A stretch of 64,000 nt of DNA from positions 1 through 64,000 of the forward strand of contig JADFCY010000007.1 of the NCBI GenBank assembly GCA_018263335.1, read 5' to 3'. A program made the translations under genes and the position numbers. Source of the stretch: Methanolinea sp. (lineage in GTDB: Archaea > Halobacteriota > Methanomicrobia > Methanomicrobiales > Methanospirillaceae). The notes under the pieces are model-generated. The model was not told where the DNA came from and ran no database searches. It was given only the letters and a program-made list of their open reading frames with translations. Below, one piece after another: positions 951 through 35,050 of this stretch. How positions within the stretch are numbered: the stretch's first letter is position 1; each line of letters starts with the position of its first letter.

Positions 951-1691
951 TTAATCCTCTGCTGTCGCAGGAATATCTTCTGCGCGCCAGACCTGGACGA
1001 ACACCTCGCCGAAGAACTCGTCCTGCCATAGCGAGAGCTTCCCCTCGAACATGAGGTAGAGGAGAGGGATATACACGTCGATAATTCGCTTGCCCATCAG
1101 CTCCGCAAGTTCTTCAAGGGTCATGATCCCGTGCTTCTCGAGACTCTCCTCGCACTGGCAGAGCACCGCCATGGCCGCCTCGCGGTATCCCTCGTCGTGC
1201 GCAATACCCACTACGTCCTCCACCTCGATGAGCCGGGGATCGAACGGGCTGATAAAACGCTGCCTGCGCCTCTGCTCCTTCTCCGCTGCCTTGAGTTCCA
1301 GGATCAGCTCAAAGAGGGTGATGGGGCGCTTCCTCAACTGCTTCCTGTCAAGGCGGCGGCGAATCTCGCGCTCCAGCCTCTCGATGGGGCCGAGCGCATT
1401 CCCGTCCTGGTCGAATTCCGCGTCAGGGCCGAATTCCTCCTCCGGGATGCCCTCATCGTCATCGAATTCTTCATCCTCACCGGCCTCTGCCTGTTCGAGG
1501 ATCTCTGACTTCATACGGAGGAGGAGCGCGGCGTAAAAAAGAGTCCTCCCCGATATCCGGAGATCGAGCTCTTTTCTCCTCTCAAGCTCCGAGAGGAACC
1601 TGTCCGTGACCTCGACGATGTCGATATTCCAGGGATCGATCTCGCCGCGCTCCGCCATCTGCACCAGGATCTCTACAGGTTCTTCAGGCAT
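951..1691 (-). CDS. scpA: Segregation and condensation protein A (kleisin)
   Basis: This 246-residue protein is the kleisin subunit that bridges the heads of an SMC dimer in chromosome condensation. The N-terminal region (about residues 1-60) has the ScpA pattern EPVEILVQMAERGEIDPWNIDIVEVTD with the following LRISGRTLFYAALLLRMKSEIL helix. The centre (about 68-95) is very acidic, as in other archaeal ScpA. The C-terminal winged-helix region (about 160-240) contacts the SMC head. Its start overlaps the end of smc by 8 bases, so the two are translationally coupled. No scpB is visible; the next gene downstream is 16S rRNA. Confidence 0.93.
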   Translation of the reverse strand: MPEEPVEILVQMAERGEIDPWNIDIVEVTDRFLSELERRKELDLRISGRTLFYAALLLRMKSEILEQAEAGEDEEFDDDEGIPEEEFGPDAEFDQDGNALGPIERLEREIRRRLDRKQLRKRPITLFELILELKAAEKEQRRRQRFISPFDPRLIEVEDVVGIAHDEGYREAAMAVLCQCEESLEKHGIMTLEELAELMGKRIIDVYIPLLYLMFEGKLSLWQDEFFGEVFVQVWRAEDIPATAED

Positions 1692-4600
1692 GCGACTTGA
1701 TCCCGGTCACATAGGAACTCTTGTCAGGGAGGAGCGTGACCCCGAGGATGCGGTCAGCCCCCTCGATCATCGGTTTTCGCAGGGATACGAGGATAAACTG
1801 GGACGTGTGCGACAGTTCTCTGATCATTGCCGCGATATGCTCAACGTTTGAGCCGTCAAGAGACATGTCCACCTCGTCGAATGCATAGAAGGGTGCAGGG
1901 ATATGCTGCTGGATCGAGAAGATGAAGGCAAGCGTGGTGAGCGACTTCTCCCCCCCTGAAAGGGCTGAGAGGTGGTGGACGGGCTTGTCCCGGGGCTTGA
2001 CGGCAAACGAGAGGCCGCCAGAGAACGGGTCCTCCTCGTTCTCGAGGATGAGGTGCCCGCTCCCGCTGGTGAGCCGGGCAAACACTTCCCTGAAATTCGC
2101 GTCGATCGCCTTGAACGCGGTCATAAACGCCTCGTACTTCATCTTCTCGAACTTCTCGATCCGTTCGAGCAGCGTGGCCCGTTCCCGGGAGAGCACCTCT
2201 TTTTTCTCTCCTCGTTCTGCGATCCTCCCCTCCACTTTTTCGTACTCCTCGATGGCGAGCATGTTCACCGCCCCGAGCTTCTTGATCTGCTGCGATGCCT
2301 CGGCCATCCCGTCCTCGATCTCACGGAGCGTAAGGTCTGTCTCGGTCCCGCCGGCTTCGCGCCGCAGCACTTCTACCTCTGCCGAGAGCGCGGTGAACCT
2401 CTCGTTCAGGGCAGAGAGCTGGATCTTATGCCGCTCTGCCGCCGCATCGAATTCGAGTATCTTCTGACCAGACTCCCTGATTGCCTCAGAGACTTCCGAG
2501 TGCCGGTTCCGGAGATCCAATAGTTCCGTCGAGAACTTCTTCTGGCGCTCCTCTATCTCGCTTATCCTGCCCTTGCTTGCCTCAATCTGCGAGAGTGCCT
2601 GGTTCACTTCGCGATCGATCTCCTCGTTCTTTGCCTGGATCCTCGTCACTTCAGCCTTCAGTTCCTCGATCCTCGTGGCAAAATGCTGCCGCTCCCGCTG
2701 CAGGTCATTGATATCCGCCTCCTTGTTCCGGAGCCGGCGCTCGGTGTCCTCGCACTCCCTCTTCTTCTTCTCGAGCTGCTCCGAGAGGACAGGGATGGAG
2801 GTGTCCTCGAGCTTCTTTTTTACCTGTTCGATCTTCTTCTGTGCCAGGGTTATCGCATCGGTGATCGAATCGAGCGCTGCCTCGAGAGCCGCAAGTTCCG
2901 CAGTCCCTGATCGCATCTCCTCTGCAAGGGCCGCCAGCACCTCGCCGATCTGCGCTTTCTCCCGAAGTGTCACCTCTTCCTGGCGGGAGAACTCCTCGTT
3001 CAGCACAGAGATGCGCGAGATCGCGGCATCGAGTTCTGCTCTCCTCGCCCTCTTTGCATCGATCTCCTCGGTGCCCCTTTTGACGAACCGCTCAATATCG
3101 GCAATCTCATTTGCGATCTCTTCCATCCGGGACCGGAGGCGCGAAATCTCGTCCTCGACTGCGGCCCCAAAACCCCTCACCGGTTTCTTGAACGAACCAC
3201 CGGTCATCGCCCCGCTCTTCTCAAGGAGCTCACCGTCAGGGGTTACCATACGGTATTTTCCAAGCATTCTCCTCCCCCGGGACAGTGAATCCACGACGAC
3301 AGTCCCCCCGAAGACCACCCGGAAGGCATCCGCGTACTGTGGCTGAAACTCAAGCATCTGCACCGCGTACCCGATCACCCCCTCCTCCTTGACTGGGGGA
3401 AGATCTGGTGGCCTCAGCCGCGAAAGGGGAAGAAACGTGACCCTTCCCATCTTCTGCTCTTTCAAGAACTCGATTGCCCGTGTGGCAACTGCATCGTCTT
3501 TTACCACCACGTAGTGCAGTTTCGACCCTGCCGCAACGTTGAGGGCTGTTGCATACTCGGGCGGGGCTTTTCCGAGTTGCGCGATTGTCCCGAACACCCC
3601 GTCCATCCCGAGCACTGCATCGAGCGTGCGGCTGCCTGCCTCTCCTCGTGCCTGCTGCTGCGCCTCCAGCCTGATGACCTCCTGCTCGTGTGACCGGTAC
3701 TCCTCCTTCACCCGCTCAAGGGTGGTCCGGCGTGCAAACACGCTGCTCTCCAGTTCCGAGAGGGCGCGGTCGAGGTCCTCCTTCTCCTTCCTGAGTGCGT
3801 CCATCTCGCGGGCACTCTCCGAAAGCCTCTGTTCCTTTCCTGCCTCATCGGCAGCGAGGGCCATCAGCCGCTCCTCCATCCGCTCCTTCTCTGAAGTCCT
3901 CATCCTGCTCTTTTCGATCAGCATGTCCTTTTGGTGGAGCAATGAGGAACGCTCGTTCTTCTTCTCCTCGACGCTCTGCATCAGGGCAAAGAGCTCGTCC
4001 CGCGCCCCCTCTGCATCCCTGCTCTGCGACTGTATCTGCTGCTCTATCTTCTCTTTCTGGGCGGTCGCGGTCGCCAGCTCCATCGCAAGGTTCGTGCGAT
4101 CGATATTCATCTCCCGGATCGCCTGGCTGCACTCTGTAACCCGGGTCTCAGCCCGTTTCTGGTCGATATACGTGCGGCTTATCCCTTCAAGACCGGTCTC
4201 CTTCTCCTTCTTTAACCTGGATATCGTCTGCTCCGCGATCCGAATCGTCCCCTTTGCCTCCTCGAGATCGGCAATCAGCCGGAGGTACTCGGCCCCGCTC
4301 TTCTGGTTGATCTGGGTGTCGATATCCGCGAGGTCTTTCTTGAGGTATTCACGTTCGTTCTCCTCCAGGCTGCGGTCAGAGACAACCCTGTCGAGCTGCA
4401 CGCGTTCGTCTTCTATCACCCTGGAGAGCGCGGCAAGGTCCTTCTCCCTTGCGTGGAGGGTGGCAGCAGCCCTGAGCCCTTCCAGGTTCTGGAGCCTCTC
4501 CTGCCAGTGCCGGAATTTCATTGCCTGCTCGCGTTCTGCCGCGAGCTCCTCAAGGCGCTGCGAGAGTTCCCTCAGCAGGAGTTCCTCGCGCTCGATTCGT

Positions 4601-29146: not shown

Positions 29147-29923
29147 TTAGAGGGCTTTTATCAGTGACGCCCTGGTGACGATCCCGGCGATCTTCCCCCC
29201 GCTGGTCACGGGAACAGAGCTGATACCCTTTGAGAGCATGAGGTCCACCACCTCGTCTATGCCTGCGCCCACATCGACAGTCAGCACCGGGCTTGTCATG
29301 ATATCCTTTACGAGCAGGTTCCGGATTCGGTGGTCCTGGTGCCGGTCCTCGACCATCTCGCGGAATCGCCGCATCGCGACTGCAACGTCCGTTTCAGTCA
29401 CGATCCCCACCACGCGGTCGTTCTCAGTGACCACGCAGCGATGGAGATTGTCGTCTATCATCCGCCTCCTCCAGTGTACGACCCGCTCGTCGACGTCAAT
29501 GGTGCATGCCGGCTCCATCACGTCAGAAAGGCTGCCCTGCGGCCGTACGACGCGAAGGATATCCCCTGCGGAGACCTGGCCGACCAGTCGGTGATCCTCG
29601 TCATAGACCACCACCAGCTTGTAGGCCTGGAGCAGGGGGATGACGACGTCGAGGTCCTGGTCGGGGTACACGGTGGTGAAGTCCTCCTCAACGGTGTTTG
29701 CCACATGTATGGAGGTGGGGGAGATGGAGGAGTTCCTCTTTGTCCCGAGTTTGTCTGCCACGCTCTGCCGCGACACGGTGCCTACCACCGCGTTGTGGTT
29801 CACCACGATAAGGGGATCGATGCCCTCGTCCAGCATCTTATCAAGGGCATCGGTGATGAGTGCGGACTTGGAGATGGTGACTGGCCTGGACATGATGTCC
29901 TTTACCAGAATATCGTCGTTCAT
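29147..29923 (-). CDS. Four-CBS-domain protein 1
   Basis: This 258-residue soluble protein consists of four CBS repeats and nothing else. Repeat starts are visible as VKDIMSRPVTISKSALITDAL (about 7), a second around TVYPDQDLDVVIPLLQ, a third around SDVMEPACTIDVDERV and a fourth at VKDIMTSPVLTVDVGAGIDEV. CBS pairs bind adenine nucleotides or SAM and regulate partners. It is the last gene of the five-gene CBS cluster and overlaps the previous gene by 4 bases. Its partner enzyme or channel is not evident. Confidence 0.9.
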   Translation of the reverse strand: MNDDILVKDIMSRPVTISKSALITDALDKMLDEGIDPLIVVNHNAVVGTVSRQSVADKLGTKRNSSISPTSIHVANTVEEDFTTVYPDQDLDVVIPLLQAYKLVVVYDEDHRLVGQVSAGDILRVVRPQGSLSDVMEPACTIDVDERVVHWRRRMIDDNLHRCVVTENDRVVGIVTETDVAVAMRRFREMVEDRHQDHRIRNLLVKDIMTSPVLTVDVGAGIDEVVDLMLSKGISSVPVTSGGKIAGIVTRASLIKAL

Positions 29924-30768
29924 TTAGCCACTTCCCGTATAATATCGTCTCTTTTTAAAATTCCTTTGATCTCGTTGCCTTCCACTGCGACCACGCTGTT
30001 GATATGATTCGCCTGCATAATCTCGATGGCTTCTTTCAGCTTCGCGTCCACCTCGACGGTGATGACCGGGCGGGACATCAGGTCTTCGGCAACGGCAGCC
30101 ATCTCAATCACGTGCCGGTACTGCTTCCTTCCGCCTGATTCCCCACGGCGCAGCATTGTCACGTCTTTTCGCGGGAGTTCCCTCTTTTCTGTCTCATAGA
30201 GGTAGAATGCAAGGTTGCTCTCCGTGATGATCCCTGCCAGCGTGCCATCATTATTGACCACGATAACCTTATCATTCCTTTCTTTCATGATGTCAACGAC
30301 ATGATCGAGCGAATGGTATCTGCTGACAGTGATTGCGTCTTCCATGACATCCGCCACGCTCTGCGAGAGCGCATTGATCGTCGCAGACTTCATGAAATCA
30401 GACTTGGTCACGATTCCCGCGATCTCACCCGCGTCTACTACCGGCAACCCGCTGATGTCCCACTGGATCATCAGGGCTGCAATTTCACGTATCGTCGTGG
30501 ATGGGGAGATGGTCAGCGGTTCGCGCGTCATCAGTATGCTCACCGGGATCTTGTCGATCGGGCGCCGCCTCCAGATCGGTTCGCTTTGCTGGAGGCGATA
30601 TCCTATGTCCTTCTTGGTGAGGATGCCCACAAGAGTCCCTGCATCCATCACCGGAATTCTGGAGATCTTGTGCTTCAGCATCAGGTTGCGCGCATACGCC
30701 ACGTGTTCCCCTGGTCCGACGACGTAGACCGGGGATGTCATGATGTCTTGTGCCAGCATTCGGTTCAC
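29920..30768 (-). CDS. Four-CBS-domain protein 2
   Basis: This 282-residue protein has four CBS repeats: AQDIMTSPVYVVGPGEHV, ILMTREPLTISPSTTIREIA, VADVMEDAITVSRYHSLDHV and AEDLMSRPVITVEVDAKLKEA. An arginine-rich linker (PRKDVTMLRRGESGGRKQYRH) precedes the last repeat. ATGA overlaps join it to both neighbours, so three CBS genes are made from one coupled mRNA. The specific ligand is unknown. Confidence 0.9.
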   Translation of the reverse strand: MNRMLAQDIMTSPVYVVGPGEHVAYARNLMLKHKISRIPVMDAGTLVGILTKKDIGYRLQQSEPIWRRRPIDKIPVSILMTREPLTISPSTTIREIAALMIQWDISGLPVVDAGEIAGIVTKSDFMKSATINALSQSVADVMEDAITVSRYHSLDHVVDIMKERNDKVIVVNNDGTLAGIITESNLAFYLYETEKRELPRKDVTMLRRGESGGRKQYRHVIEMAAVAEDLMSRPVITVEVDAKLKEAIEIMQANHINSVVAVEGNEIKGILKRDDIIREVAK

Positions 30769-31709
30769 CCCATGGAGAGGGCTTTGACCAGGTCAAACTC
30801 GGTTACGAGCCCAATCAGCCTCGCATCCTCGATCACCGGGAGCGCGCCCGCATTCCTTCGCACCATCTCTGCTGCGGCCTGGTTGACGCTCTTCTCAGGG
30901 GCGATAGTGTAAAGGTTCCCTGAAACAAGCGTCCTCACCGGAAGCGCCATCACCTCTGCAATATCTCCTGTCTCCAGCTGGTCGAACACCCGCTTGCTTC
31001 CAAGGTATTTCATGATATCAGTCGTGGTGATGATCCCATAGAGCACGTCGTCGCTCACCACCGGCAGCCTCCTGAACCGGTACCTGGTCATCTCCTTCGT
31101 GACTTTTCCAATGGGGCAGTCCGGATCGGTGACCCGGAGTGACCTGCTCATGATCTCTTCGACGGTACAGGTCACCCTCTCGTTCGCAAGTACCGTCATG
31201 ACATCCCGTTCCGTGACAATTCCGGTGAGAGCCCCATTCTCATCAAGGATCGGGATCCCGCCTATCATCTTGCCCTTGATGATATCGATTGCATCCTGGA
31301 GCGACGCGGAGTCGGGAAGCGATGTCACCTGACTTGTCATGATGCTTCGGATGCTCTCGTTTACTGCCGACAGCAGGTTGCCATCGTGCTTCACCTGTAC
31401 CAGGTTGAACTTGTCCCCGCCACCAAGGAAGTTGATCACGTCACCCGAAGTGACAATTCCGCGCATTTTCCTTGAGCCCGCGTCCACCACCGGCAGCCTG
31501 CGGAACCCGCACCGGGTCATGGTCTCCACCGCACCAATGATGCTCATCGTCTGCGGCACCGAGACCACGTCCAGGGTTGCGATCGCCATGATCTCGCCCT
31601 CCTGCTCTACAACCCTTGACTTGAATTCGATTGGGCCCCGATCGAGTTTTCCGGGCATTTTCAGAAGTTTATCACTCTGTTTGTAATTCTTGTCACTGTG
31701 GTGCACCAT
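30765..31709 (-). CDS. Four-CBS-domain protein 3
   Basis: This 314-residue protein has an N-terminal extension (about 1-40) and then four CBS repeats, the first being IATLDVVSVPQTMSIIGAVE, then IRSIMTSQVTSLPDSASLQDA, VEEIMSRSLRVTDPDCP and VMALPVRTLVSGNLYTIAPE. The ATG at 31709 has GGGGGCAGG just upstream. An alternative ATG at 31658 (MPGKLDRGPIEFKSR) lacks a Shine-Dalgarno but matches the style of relatives. It lies 73 bases after the next CBS gene upstream. Confidence 0.88.
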   Translation of the reverse strand: MVHHSDKNYKQSDKLLKMPGKLDRGPIEFKSRVVEQEGEIMAIATLDVVSVPQTMSIIGAVETMTRCGFRRLPVVDAGSRKMRGIVTSGDVINFLGGGDKFNLVQVKHDGNLLSAVNESIRSIMTSQVTSLPDSASLQDAIDIIKGKMIGGIPILDENGALTGIVTERDVMTVLANERVTCTVEEIMSRSLRVTDPDCPIGKVTKEMTRYRFRRLPVVSDDVLYGIITTTDIMKYLGSKRVFDQLETGDIAEVMALPVRTLVSGNLYTIAPEKSVNQAAAEMVRRNAGALPVIEDARLIGLVTEFDLVKALSMG

Positions 31710-31782
31710 ACCTGCCCCCGATATTTCCTGTCGTTACATCCCGGTGCAGATTGACCGCCGGGATTGATCTTCCTTCCACAAA

Positions 31783-32535
31783 TCAGTCGATTATCGCATT
31801 CAGCACATCGTGCCGGTCGATGATTCCTACCAGGTCATCCCCGGAGATCACAGGGAGGCGGCTGATATCATGCCTGACCAGCATCTCGGCTGCCTTCTGC
31901 ACGCTCTCGCCGGGAGATACAGTAATAACCGGTGTGGTCATCACTCCCGCAACAGGAGTGCTCGATGCACTCTCCACGGAAGTCCTCCACCGCCCATCCC
32001 TCAGGAGGTCGCGGCGGGAGACGATCCCCACCAGCCGCTTCTTCTTTACCACCGGAAATGCGGAGAAGCCGCTCTCCGTGATGAGAGTGTGAATGCGGTG
32101 GACCGGCTCGTCGGCCTGGCATTCCACGACCTTCCTGGACATGTATCTCTCTACCAGGCCTCCGATCCTGTGCCGTGTGATGATCACTGGAAACACGTCA
32201 GAGAGAAGCACACCTCCGAGGACCTGCCCCTCTTCATCCACAACCGGCACGCTGTCTGTCCCATTTTCCCGGATGACCTTTATGACTTCATCTACAGATG
32301 AATTGGGGCTGACGGGACGGATTTCCCTGATGAACCCCTCGATAGTCACGTTTGAACGCGTTGCCGTGACATTGAGAATCCCGGATATGTCGACGCATCC
32401 CATGAGCCGGCGCTTCCCGTCGTGAACAAAAAGTTCGCGGTACACATCGTCACGGAGCACCTGCCTTGCCCGGGTTGCTTTCTCATCATATTTAAGGAGT
32501 GGAACTCCCACCATGAAGTCCCGGGCAATTTTCAT
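31783..32535 (-). CDS. Four-CBS-domain protein 4
   Basis: This 250-residue protein is built of four CBS repeats, including ARDFMVGVPLLKYDEKATRARQVL at the start and VAGVMTTPVITVSPGESVQKAAEML at the end. The central part (VSPNSSVDEVIKVIRENGTDSVPVVDEEG; MSRKVVECQADEPVHRI) completes two pairs. It overlaps the zinc-ribbon CBS gene by 4 bases. No other domain is present. Confidence 0.9.
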   Translation of the reverse strand: MKIARDFMVGVPLLKYDEKATRARQVLRDDVYRELFVHDGKRRLMGCVDISGILNVTATRSNVTIEGFIREIRPVSPNSSVDEVIKVIRENGTDSVPVVDEEGQVLGGVLLSDVFPVIITRHRIGGLVERYMSRKVVECQADEPVHRIHTLITESGFSAFPVVKKKRLVGIVSRRDLLRDGRWRTSVESASSTPVAGVMTTPVITVSPGESVQKAAEMLVRHDISRLPVISGDDLVGIIDRHDVLNAIID

Positions 32536-33101
32536 TGTAACAGTTCCTCCTCACGGCATGACGGACAGAGCATGAGGTTGTCTATCCGCCGAAGATCGTC
32601 AGACATCTGGCTGCACCTGCTGCAGAGACCCACCTCTACCTCATCAAGGCGGTTGATCTCTACCAGGTCGTTCATCAGCTCATTGATCTCTGTGGATACC
32701 GTGAGAATGTCACGAACTGTTACAATGCCAATCACCTTGTTCTCGTCGTCAACCACAGGGAGCCGCCGGACGCGGTGCTTAATCATCATGTGTGCTGCAT
32801 CCTTCGCATACTTGTCTGCGCTGATAGTGATGAGAGGAGTGCTCATGATCTCGCTGACCTGGACGGTGCTCGGCTTCAGATCCTTGGCCACCACCTTGCA
32901 GTTGATATCCTCCTCTGTCACGATCCCGACGGGGAGATTATCCCTGCCGAGCACGATGCAGCTTCCCACCTCATCCCGGCACATAAGCATGGCCGCACGG
33001 GCAACCGTTCCATCGTATCCTGTGGTGGTGGGGTTGCGCCGCATGACCTCCCTTACTGGCACCCGGGTATCGAAGCGGATGGTATCGGATGATTTCTTCA
33101 A
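32532..33101 (-). CDS. Two-CBS-domain protein with C-terminal zinc ribbon
   Basis: This 189-residue protein has two CBS repeats (VREVMRRNPTTTGYDGTV, about 14; VSEIMSTPLITISADKYAKDA, about 80) and a C-terminal treble-clef-like zinc site: CSRCSQM near residue 158 and CPSC near 179. CBS plus zinc ribbon proteins are known in archaea without a firm function. It is the first gene of the CBS cluster, divergent from the GTPase cluster. A likely promoter lies at 33166-33177. Confidence 0.88.
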   Translation of the reverse strand: MKKSSDTIRFDTRVPVREVMRRNPTTTGYDGTVARAAMLMCRDEVGSCIVLGRDNLPVGIVTEEDINCKVVAKDLKPSTVQVSEIMSTPLITISADKYAKDAAHMMIKHRVRRLPVVDDENKVIGIVTVRDILTVSTEINELMNDLVEINRLDEVEVGLCSRCSQMSDDLRRIDNLMLCPSCREEELLQ

Positions 33102-33144
33102 TCGATCACCTCCATGTTGTTGAGAGAAGTTGGGTGTATTGCAG

Positions 33145-33159
33145 TTACCAATACGGTAA
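33145..33159. promoter_or_regulatory. Inverted repeat near the CBS-cluster start point
   Basis: TTACC-AATAC-GGTAA is a perfect 5+5 dyad. It coincides with the transcription start expected from the minus-strand TATA box at 33166-33177, where a repressor could act. No regulator is known. Confidence 0.35.
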
Positions 33160-33165
33160 GTGGAG

Positions 33166-33177
33166 TCTATATACTTT
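33166..33177 (-). promoter_or_regulatory. Promoter of the CBS-domain cluster
   Basis: The minus strand reads AAAGTATATAGAC, a clear TATA box with an A-rich BRE. The expected start is near 33145, leaving a leader of about 45 bases before the first CBS gene. Confidence 0.5.
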
Positions 33178-33203
33178 CTGCAGTTCGCAAAAACACGGCA
33201 AAC

Positions 33204-33214
33204 GGTATATAATA
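33204..33214 (+). promoter_or_regulatory. Promoter of the GTPase/vesiculation-type cluster
   Basis: GGTATATAATA on the plus strand is a strong TATA box. The predicted start near 33235 gives a leader of about 74 bases, with a Shine-Dalgarno GGAGGTG before the ATG at 33309. Confidence 0.55.
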
Positions 33215-33308
33215 AACCTAATTACCACCTTCCCCTAAGAAGGATAATAACGGATCCGCGTGATGCCGGGGGATTCGGCGCTTCTCCCTGTTCACGTGGA
33301 GGTGTACC

Positions 33309-33950
33309 ATGAATATCCTGGTCCAGACCAAAAGACGTCTCTCGAAGTTCCTGATGGCCTTCTTCAAGAAGAAAAAGGCCAGGATCGGAATATACGGCCC
33401 ACCAAATGCAGGCAAGACCACACTCGCCAACCGTATTGCAAAGGACTGGACTGGGGAGGATGTGGGCCTGGTGAGCGAGATCCCCCACGAGACGAGGAGG
33501 GCGGTACGAAAGACCGACATCAGCATCTCGGGTTCGAACGGCAGCAACATCACCATCGACATCGTCGATACTCCCGGTGTCACCACCAAGATCGACTACA
33601 AGGACTTCCTTGAATACGGGATGGACAAGGAGACCGCGGTGATCCGCGCAAGGGAGGCCACTGAGGGTGTTGCAGAGGCCATGCACTGGCTTCGTGAGGA
33701 TATCAACGGCGTCATGTACATGCTAGACGCCACCGAAGACCCCTTCATGCAGGTCAACATCATGATGATCGGGATCATTGAGAGCCGGAAGCTGCCGGTA
33801 ATCATCGTTGCAAACAAGATTGACCTCCCCGATGCATCCCCGCAGCGCATCCGGAGCGCCTTTCCCCAGCACCCTGTGGTTCCTATCTCCTGCCTTGAGG
33901 GGAAGAACATCGAAGACCTGTACGAGAAGATGGTGGAGCATTTTGGATAG
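33309..33950 (+). CDS. arvA: Era-like small GTPase, ArvA-type
   Basis: This 213-residue GTPase has G1 GPPNAGKTT (about 30-38), a switch I region with HETRRAV, G3 DTPG, G4 NKID and G5 SCLEGK. The N-terminus (residues 1-26) is very basic and amphipathic (KRRLSKFLMAFFKKKK), suiting membrane contact. It lacks the KH domain of true Era. In haloarchaea a homologous GTPase gene, followed by DUF2073 and zinc-ribbon genes, was reported to drive extracellular vesicle formation (ArvABC). The same three-gene order here supports that name; activity in methanogens is inference. Confidence 0.85.
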   Translation: MNILVQTKRRLSKFLMAFFKKKKARIGIYGPPNAGKTTLANRIAKDWTGEDVGLVSEIPHETRRAVRKTDISISGSNGSNITIDIVDTPGVTTKIDYKDFLEYGMDKETAVIRAREATEGVAEAMHWLREDINGVMYMLDATEDPFMQVNIMMIGIIESRKLPVIIVANKIDLPDASPQRIRSAFPQHPVVPISCLEGKNIEDLYEKMVEHFG

Positions 33951-33959
33951 GAGTGGAGC

Positions 33960-34322
33960 ATGCAGGGAATACAGATAGACCTGATATCATCCGAGAAACT
34001 TGCATCGCTCACTTCGATGGAGAAGATCCATCTCATCCTCGACCACGTGCGCAAGGGATCAATCATCATCCTCGAGAGGGGCCTCTCTCCGGATGAGCAG
34101 AGCACCCTGATTGAGATGACCATGCGCGAGATCCTCCCTGACGGATTCAACGGCATCGAGATAGAGACGTATCCATCAAAGGACCAGAGTCCCGGCTTTC
34201 TCCAGAAACTGCTGGGGAGAACGGCGATTGAGTCGCGCCTGACCGTAATTGGTCCGGCAAACCAGTTGCGGATGATCAAGAAAGAGAAGGATATCATCAG
34301 CGCCTGGGTCTCGACGAGGTGA
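33960..34322 (+). CDS. arvB: DUF2073-like protein (ArvB/OapB type)
   Basis: This 120-residue soluble protein begins MQGIQIDLISSEKLASL and contains the conserved run IHLILDHVRKGSIIILERGL (about 27-46) and the end LTVIGPANQLRMIKKEKDIISAWV. I recognise it as the DUF2073 family, found beside the Era-like GTPase in euryarchaea. It has a strong GGAGTGGAG Shine-Dalgarno and lies 9 bases after the GTPase. Molecular function is unknown; a GTPase partner role is plausible. Confidence 0.82.
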   Translation: MQGIQIDLISSEKLASLTSMEKIHLILDHVRKGSIIILERGLSPDEQSTLIEMTMREILPDGFNGIEIETYPSKDQSPGFLQKLLGRTAIESRLTVIGPANQLRMIKKEKDIISAWVSTR

Positions 34323-34328
34323 GCACCC

Positions 34329-34706
34329 ATGCCACACCGTTGCGTCAACTGCGGACGGGAATACCGCACCAACGAGTGCGAGATCCTCAAGGGCTGCAGG
34401 GAATGCGGCGGAAAGAAGTTCATCTTCGTGCCCCTTGTCGAGCGGTCGAGGGAGGAAGAACCTGTCCCAACAGAAGGAACCGGGGAGAAGGTGCAGAGTG
34501 TGGTGGAGACGCAGGAAACAAAACTCCCTCCTGGCCACGAACCACTGGAGAGCATCCGGATCGTCTCCCCCGGCACGTACGAGCTCAACATCGAGAAGCT
34601 GGCAAATTCCGACGAGCGTGTAGTCGGGGTGGGGAAAGGGGAGGGCAGCTACCTGGTGGACCTCCTCTCAATGGTCAGGCCAAAAAAGAAAAAGAACAGG
34701 AAATAG
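34329..34706 (+). CDS. arvC: Zinc-ribbon protein (ArvC/OapC type, DUF2072-like)
   Basis: This 125-residue protein has a four-cysteine zinc ribbon at the N-terminus (HRCVNCGREY and GCRECGGKKFIF, about 4-33), an acidic linker, then the conserved IRIVSPGTYELNIEKL and GVGKGEGSYLVDLLSM, and a lysine-rich tail. It is the third member of the GTPase cluster, 6 bases after DUF2073, with GAGGTGA before the ATG. The family is archaeal; its role in the vesicle-forming system is not defined. Confidence 0.83.
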   Translation: MPHRCVNCGREYRTNECEILKGCRECGGKKFIFVPLVERSREEEPVPTEGTGEKVQSVVETQETKLPPGHEPLESIRIVSPGTYELNIEKLANSDERVVGVGKGEGSYLVDLLSMVRPKKKKNRK

Positions 34707-34722
34707 GGTATGTTATCTCATT

Positions 34723-35028
34723 TCAGTTGATATTGTCAACGCTGTATCCCTTGTGCACCAGCAGGTCCTTGACCCTCTCCTTGTGATTGCCCTGCAGTTC
34801 GATGGAGGTACCCTTCACCGTGCCACCGCAGGCGAGTCTCCCTTTCATGTACTTTGAGAGGTCTTCCAGGTCGATGTCCGTCGGGTTCAGGCCTTCGATC
34901 ACGGTGACTTCTTTGCCATAACGCCTCCTGTCGACCTTCACGCTGATACGCTGCTGTTCTTTTGCGACTTCTTCACAGATGCATAACTCTTTTGGCAGTC
35001 CACACGTCGGACATATCCCACCGTTCAT
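34723..35028 (-). CDS. Translation initiation factor aIF1 (SUI1)
   Basis: This 101-residue factor monitors start-codon selection on the small subunit. An N-terminal zinc site ([13 protein letters not shown], about 6-18) precedes the SUI1 domain with [26 protein letters not shown]-like ([20 protein letters not shown]) and the end [13 protein letters not shown]. The TATA box at 35051-35060 puts transcription start at about 35028, so this ATG would be leaderless. A TTG five codons upstream falls before the start point. It converges with the zinc-ribbon gene. Confidence 0.95.
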
Positions 35029-35050
35029 TACAAGTACCTTCAAGTTCTGC

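Follow-up and report, generated by a model that had tools for sequence, protein, structure and literature searches.

A complete arvABC (oapABC) cluster in Methanolinea is set back-to-back with a conserved array of putative ribosome hibernation genes

The window under study, a 64,000 nucleotide stretch of a Methanolinea sp. contig, contains three consecutive genes that are transcribed in the same direction:

33309..33950, + strand: arvA (oapA), a single-domain GTPase of 213 aa.
33960..34322, + strand: arvB (oapB, PF09846, formerly DUF2073), 120 aa, Pfam OapB score of 148.4 bits.
34329..34706, + strand: arvC (oapC, PF09845, DUF2072 zinc ribbon), 125 aa, Pfam OapC score of 98.8 bits.

The genes are separated by gaps of 9 bases (arvA-arvB) and 6 bases (arvB-arvC), and a ribosome site that can be read directly from the sequence precedes each of them: GGAGGTG for arvA, GGAGTGGAG for arvB, and GAGGTGA for arvC. 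ArvA matches the Pfam family MMR_HSR1 with 51.4 bits, all three Pfam matches of the operon being above cut-off, and the four zinc ribbon cysteines of ArvC (C5, C8, C23, C26) are invariant. The arvA-arvB-arvC order is kept in nearly all of the relatives compared, the nearest named ones being Methanolinea and other Methanoregulaceae, and is well beyond chance. A preliminary description of this DNA reported a GTPase, a DUF2073-like protein and a zinc ribbon in this order, with 6-9 base gaps and strong ribosome sites; the open reading frames, Pfam matches and sites agree. Its identification of a complete ArvABC cluster is borne out as well by the OapB (148 bits) and OapC (99 bits) matches and by the placement of ArvA in the haloarchaeal ArvA clade. 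Judged by its sequence, the locus is a complete ArvABC (OapABC) cluster and its family membership is firm.

The structure model of ArvB had a pLDDT of 79.8, and a fold search with it returned no match below E 0.001. The ArvC model was of low confidence (pLDDT = 64.5, pTM = 0.28). A search of the locus for structured RNA gave no Rfam match, and a defence function was rejected as there was no PADLOC match. A SUI1/YciH-like translation factor gene (34723-35043, - strand) is convergent with arvC and is kept only in Methanolinea-type and Methanospirillum-type loci.

The relationship of ArvA to its haloarchaeal counterparts was examined with a tree of 54 ArvA proteins, to which five non-ArvA small GTPase domains of the phylum were added. 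Twelve haloarchaeal sequences, recognised by a pI of 4.6-4.8 and a GC content of 58-70% and not by name, formed one clade with 28 Methanomicrobiales ArvA proteins (support 100/100), and the other GTPases of the phylum (SRPRB-like) were placed outside of ArvA, also with 100/100 support. The GTPase therefore groups as the preliminary description had anticipated, with haloarchaeal ArvA and not with an unrelated family. The novelty that the same description attached to finding the cluster in a methanogen did not hold. OapB is present in 235 of the 247 genomes sampled from the phylum, and Mills et al. (2024), who renamed the DUF families of OapB and OapC as ArvB and ArvC, identified 1,666 ArvA homologs across 14 archaeal phyla, Halobacteriota and Methanobacteriota included, 95% of them accompanied by ArvB and 91% by ArvC (PMC10927574). 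The presence of ArvABC in methanogens is already known.

One genus of family f7 includes six genomes (G001, G011, G021, G031, G040, G047; 70-90% complete) that have none of arvA, arvB and arvC and a seventh with the same genus code (G054) that has all three, a possible whole-module loss or classification issue. In three Methanosarcinaceae-type loci of family f8 (L148, L154, L159), arvC is not directly 3' of arvB, and a same-strand PhoU/AbrB-like or other open reading frame lies upstream of arvA.

The G motifs of ArvA are G1 GPPNAGKT (30-37), G2 HETR (60-63), G3 DTPG (87-90), G4 NKID (169-172) and G5 S194-L196. Among 133 ArvA sequences, GPPNAGKT, HETR, DTPG, NKxD and the G5 serine are near-invariant, and at least 132 have V, L or M, not the catalytic glutamine, as the next residue after DTPG. 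A P-loop asparagine and a T-R pair in switch I mark the potassium-stimulated Era/Der/MnmE group. The best curated-family scores of ArvA were for small_GTP, Der and Era and exceeded that for Arf, and the closest solved structures are those of Der, MnmE and Era. With the Era/Der/MnmE (TEES) GTPases, ArvA shares the P-loop asparagine, the T-R in G2, and DTPG followed by a hydrophobic residue in place of glutamine; however, it has neither a tandem G domain nor the C-terminal KH domain of Era, since it stops at the G domain, and it has an extra basic N-terminal segment. Its Era equivalog score is 54.7 bits compared to the 237 required. With the Arf/Sar1 small GTPases, ArvA shares a helix N-terminal to the G domain for which a membrane role has been proposed. 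Membership of the Arf family was nonetheless rejected given a Pfam Arf score of 28 bits versus 51 for MMR_HSR1 and the lack of a catalytic glutamine after G3 (DxGGQ). By its motifs, the signature of ArvA is of the Era/Der type (P-loop asparagine, HETR, no catalytic glutamine) and not of the Arf type; no earlier report of this assignment was found in the literature. The signature predicts that GTP hydrolysis by ArvA would be stimulated by potassium, activated by dimerisation, and in need of no classical GAP.

Elsewhere in the same genome, a gene at 1480-2673 (- strand) of locus L002 encodes a fusion protein in which the N-terminal half is RecA/KaiC-like and is joined to a small GTPase domain resembling SRPRB/Arf. 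The gene adjoins a diphthine-synthase-like gene, an arrangement that is also found in the relatives L120, L121 and L122.

The reference for function is the ArvABC/OapABC system of Haloferax volcanii (HVO_3014-3013-3012), which has in common with the present cluster its gene content and order, PF09846 and PF09845, the ArvA clade, and a helix before the G domain. In H. volcanii, vesicle function has been demonstrated; for the cluster described here, it is putative. Loss of ArvA or ArvB reduces vesicles about 3-fold, overexpression of ArvA increases them 3.5-fold, and loss of ArvC increases them 1.65-fold (PMC10927574). We infer by analogy that this organism may bud vesicles by the ArvABC route; no vesicle observation for it or its close relatives was found in the literature. 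Methanobrevibacter smithii vesiculates without any ArvA (PMC12134362), so methanogen vesiculation in general does not depend on ArvA and the preliminary description, in speaking of methanogens, was too broad.

The N-terminal segment of ArvA, described earlier as basic and amphipathic, is indeed basic (residues 1-25), the net charge of the N-terminus being +9; its amphipathicity is weak in this sequence (moment 0.54, shuffle p 0.19), with medians over relatives of p 0.02-0.11. The corresponding haloarchaeal helix has a net charge of about 0 and is therefore neutral where the present one is strongly basic. The two systems also differ in their surroundings: the divergent partner here is an array of CBS-domain genes, whereas the haloarchaeal setting is origin-associated.

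The role of ArvB may be considered in light of a sister lineage from which it has disappeared. The window's family was represented by 108 genomes. ArvA was found in 99 of them (58 of the 59 of high quality) and OapB in 54. In two genera, Methanoregula and kin (47 genomes), arvB occurs nowhere in the genome and arvA still adjoins arvC: OapB is missing from 8/8 genomes of genus g2, with a strong ArvA match in 8, and from 39/39 of genus g3, with a strong ArvA match in 35. One fragmented locus aside, arvC directly follows arvA in Methanoregula-type loci; the two matches lie 8-31 bases apart and OapB is missing between them. Relocation of arvB is excluded because several of these genomes are single contigs. 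Their ArvA proteins form one clade (100/99, in a tree distorted by one DRG-like outgroup row), thus a single loss of arvB took place. In the arvB-less group, the median dN/dS was 0.052 for ArvA and 0.098 for ArvC, compared to 0.103 and 0.116 for the relatives that have arvB; these are pairwise estimates with dS near 1 and hence approximate. Both proteins are under strong purifying selection in the arvB-less group. The only systematic ArvA changes were R67K and Y103F, and an attempt to map an ArvB interface from ArvA residues freed by the loss identified no interface from these two sites.

Since arvB is gone and the adjacent arvA and arvC remain under selection, ArvB is dispensable in that lineage, where it is unlikely to be a strictly required exchange factor. 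Normal vesicle numbers in H. volcanii depend on ArvB, which leaves two readings: that vesiculation proceeds differently in Methanoregula, or that ArvB modulates the process without being an obligatory activator. The loss warns against a wholesale transfer of the haloarchaeal mechanism. No earlier report of it was found in the literature, the main text of PMC10927574 being the part covered. With ArvA and ArvC retained across many genomes, this clean removal makes the question of what ArvB does directly testable.

The same lineage bears on a different view of the module, in which ArvABC would serve the envelope or cell shape in general (curvature, or upkeep of the division site or S-layer), with the yield of vesicles as one read-out. 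The H. volcanii oapA mutant makes fewer rods and ArvB has been likened to SepF (PMC10927574), a fold that is among the weak matches found here; moreover, the module is near-universal in the phylum. Yet overexpression of ArvA specifically raises vesicle number (PMC10927574), the SepF similarity is not significant with IF3-C and Alba folds ranking equally, and a search of the arvB-less genomes for an extra SepF found the usual single SepF only. A general envelope role is considered quite unlikely. On the same grounds, with SepF being one of many equally weak fold matches, the identity of ArvB as a SepF was rejected.

Head-to-head with arvA are five CBS-domain genes (29147-33101, - strand), numbered from the arvA side:

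32532..33101, - strand: array type 1, two CBS domains and a C-terminal CxxC...CxxC (zinc-ribbon-like).
31783..32535, - strand: array type 2, a four-CBS protein, best match chain 9znf_4 (1e-36); CM-5 by order and loss pattern.
30765..31661, - strand: array type 3, best match 9znf_5 (1.6e-68), also MJ1225; CM-4 by order.
29920..30768, - strand: array type 4, best match 9zni_6 (1.5e-59); CM-1 by order and loss pattern.
29147..29923, - strand: array type 5, best match 9zni_7/9zng_7 (7e-44); CM-2 by order.

Types 2-5 each find their best match (1e-36 to 1.6e-68) in a different CBS chain of PDB entries 9znf, 9zng and 9zni. These entries also hold a Methanosarcina-type ribosomal protein uL2 and are therefore ribosome structures. 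Hibernation of archaeal ribosomes was the subject of a 2026 study that described a CM-5/4/1/2 gene cluster, noted that CM-1 and CM-5 are absent from gut methanogens such as Methanomicrobium, and called the role of CM-2 unresolved (PMC13324472). In our comparison, the Methanomicrobium mobile locus has kept only types 1, 3 and 5, which together with the reported absences identifies type 2 as CM-5 and type 4 as CM-1, in agreement with gene order. Types 2-5 thus correspond to the CM-5/4/1/2 hibernation cluster, in that order; both comprise four adjacent four-CBS genes, two of them lost in Methanomicrobium, and the present locus differs by the attachment of a fifth gene (two-CBS plus zinc ribbon) and of arvABC. 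From homology to chains in the Methanosarcina ribosome entries, the type 2-5 proteins are predicted to bind and inactivate ribosomes. The type 5 (CM-2) gene is among those matching such chains (9zni_7, 9zng_7). The type 1 gene, which is outside the named CM families, adjoins arvA in nearly all array-bearing loci and is a candidate local regulator.

The proximity of such proteins raises the strongest rival to a vesicle role, namely that ArvA acts chiefly on ribosomes and only secondarily on vesicles. It would be an Era/Der-like GTPase linked to ribosomes or translation and would partner the neighbouring hibernation proteins, for example in ribosome parking or recycling at the membrane, and the haloarchaeal vesicle changes and tRNA/rRNA cargo would be secondary. 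Der, Era and MnmE are the closest families by sequence, the P-loop asparagine and HETR signature fits, arvA is kept opposite ribosome-bound CBS proteins, and a section heading in PMC10927574 describes H. volcanii vesicles as enriched in rRNA and tRNA. Against these stand the enrichment of ArvA in vesicles and the response to its overexpression (PMC10927574), the lack of a KH or second G domain, the 17 of 31 sampled families that lack the arrangement, and a literature in which no report of ArvA itself on ribosomes was found. This rival is regarded as unlikely.

The two gene sets share a single upstream region:

33102..33308, no strand: divergent intergenic region, 207 bp between start codons.
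About 33208-33219: promoter-like AATAAACCTAAT, facing arvA.
About 33168-33173: TATATA, facing the CBS genes.
33142-33160: inverted repeat TTACC-N5-GGTAA, conserved in Methanolinea-type relatives.

In an alignment of 19 Methanoregulaceae loci, one of which has no alignable CBS-side sequence, most share AATAAACCTAAT, TATATA and the repeat core. These elements are consistent with local control. No second copy of the repeat occurs in the genome within two mismatches, and a regulon was rejected on account of the single copy.

Of 58 long Methanomicrobiales loci, exactly these five CBS types are present in 46, a sixth gene is added in 2 more, and the rest have three or four. In distant families, all five types likewise face arvA in this order, at 29-45% protein identity, and none of the other window neighbours is retained there. 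Among the 31 sampled families of the phylum with enough flank, the CBS-arv arrangement is present in 14 and absent in 17, the latter including all sampled haloarchaeal families, the Methanosarcinaceae-type f8, and f9. Linkage occurs in each of the two main ArvA clades, and this points to an arrangement that is ancestral and was lost later in some families; seven changes were counted with the linked families on the ArvA clades, a number that is approximate as three Methanosarcinaceae rows were mis-extracted (5.6 branch). Could the adjacency, as distinct from the identity of the operon, be a chance feature of inherited gene order, the two sets sharing neither regulation nor function? The genes are divergent and do not form one operon, and the linkage has been lost in many families. 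The persistence of five types in one order where other neighbours have gone, the occurrence of linkage in both clades, and the conserved intergenic elements all argue otherwise, leaving an accident possible though rather doubtful. The back-to-back setting of arvABC and hibernation genes was not found to have been reported before: in the main texts, "CBS" does not occur in PMC10927574 nor OapA/arvA in PMC13324472. As a member of a known system, the present arvABC is complete and ordinary; its setting is conserved and was unreported.

On balance, the probable explanation is a vertically inherited and functional ArvABC operon with a membrane or vesicle role and an expression tied to ribosome hibernation. 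It is favoured because of the Pfam matches and gene order, the 100/100 clade, the H. volcanii genetics, the near-invariant G motifs and an arvA omega of 0.05-0.10, and, for its second part, the CBS order kept opposite arvA in distant families, the ribosome-entry matches, and the conserved intergenic elements. The GTPase ArvA would form dimers and, when GTP-bound, insert its N-terminal helix into the inner membrane face, leading to outward curvature and vesicle release. ArvC would damp this cycle and ArvB would promote it without being indispensable. Through the shared divergent control region, the module may be expressed in response to slow growth or energy stress, conditions under which the CBS proteins would park ribosomes. 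Against this explanation are the absence of CBS linkage from 17/31 families, including the haloarchaea where function was demonstrated, the weak amphipathicity of the window helix and its charge unlike that of haloarchaeal ArvA, the fact that divergent genes need not be co-regulated, and vesiculation by M. smithii without ArvA.

That vesiculation and ribosome hibernation have regulation or function in common may be inferred from the gene arrangement and can be tested. A bolder and improbable version is that arvABC and the CM array form one ancestral dormancy divergon, in which the signal for ribosome parking would also turn on GTPase-driven budding and resting cells would use vesicles to export or share RNA derived from ribosomes. 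The conserved pairing with hibernation genes predicts that vesiculation would be induced in starvation or dormancy, and the question of its timing thereby becomes testable.
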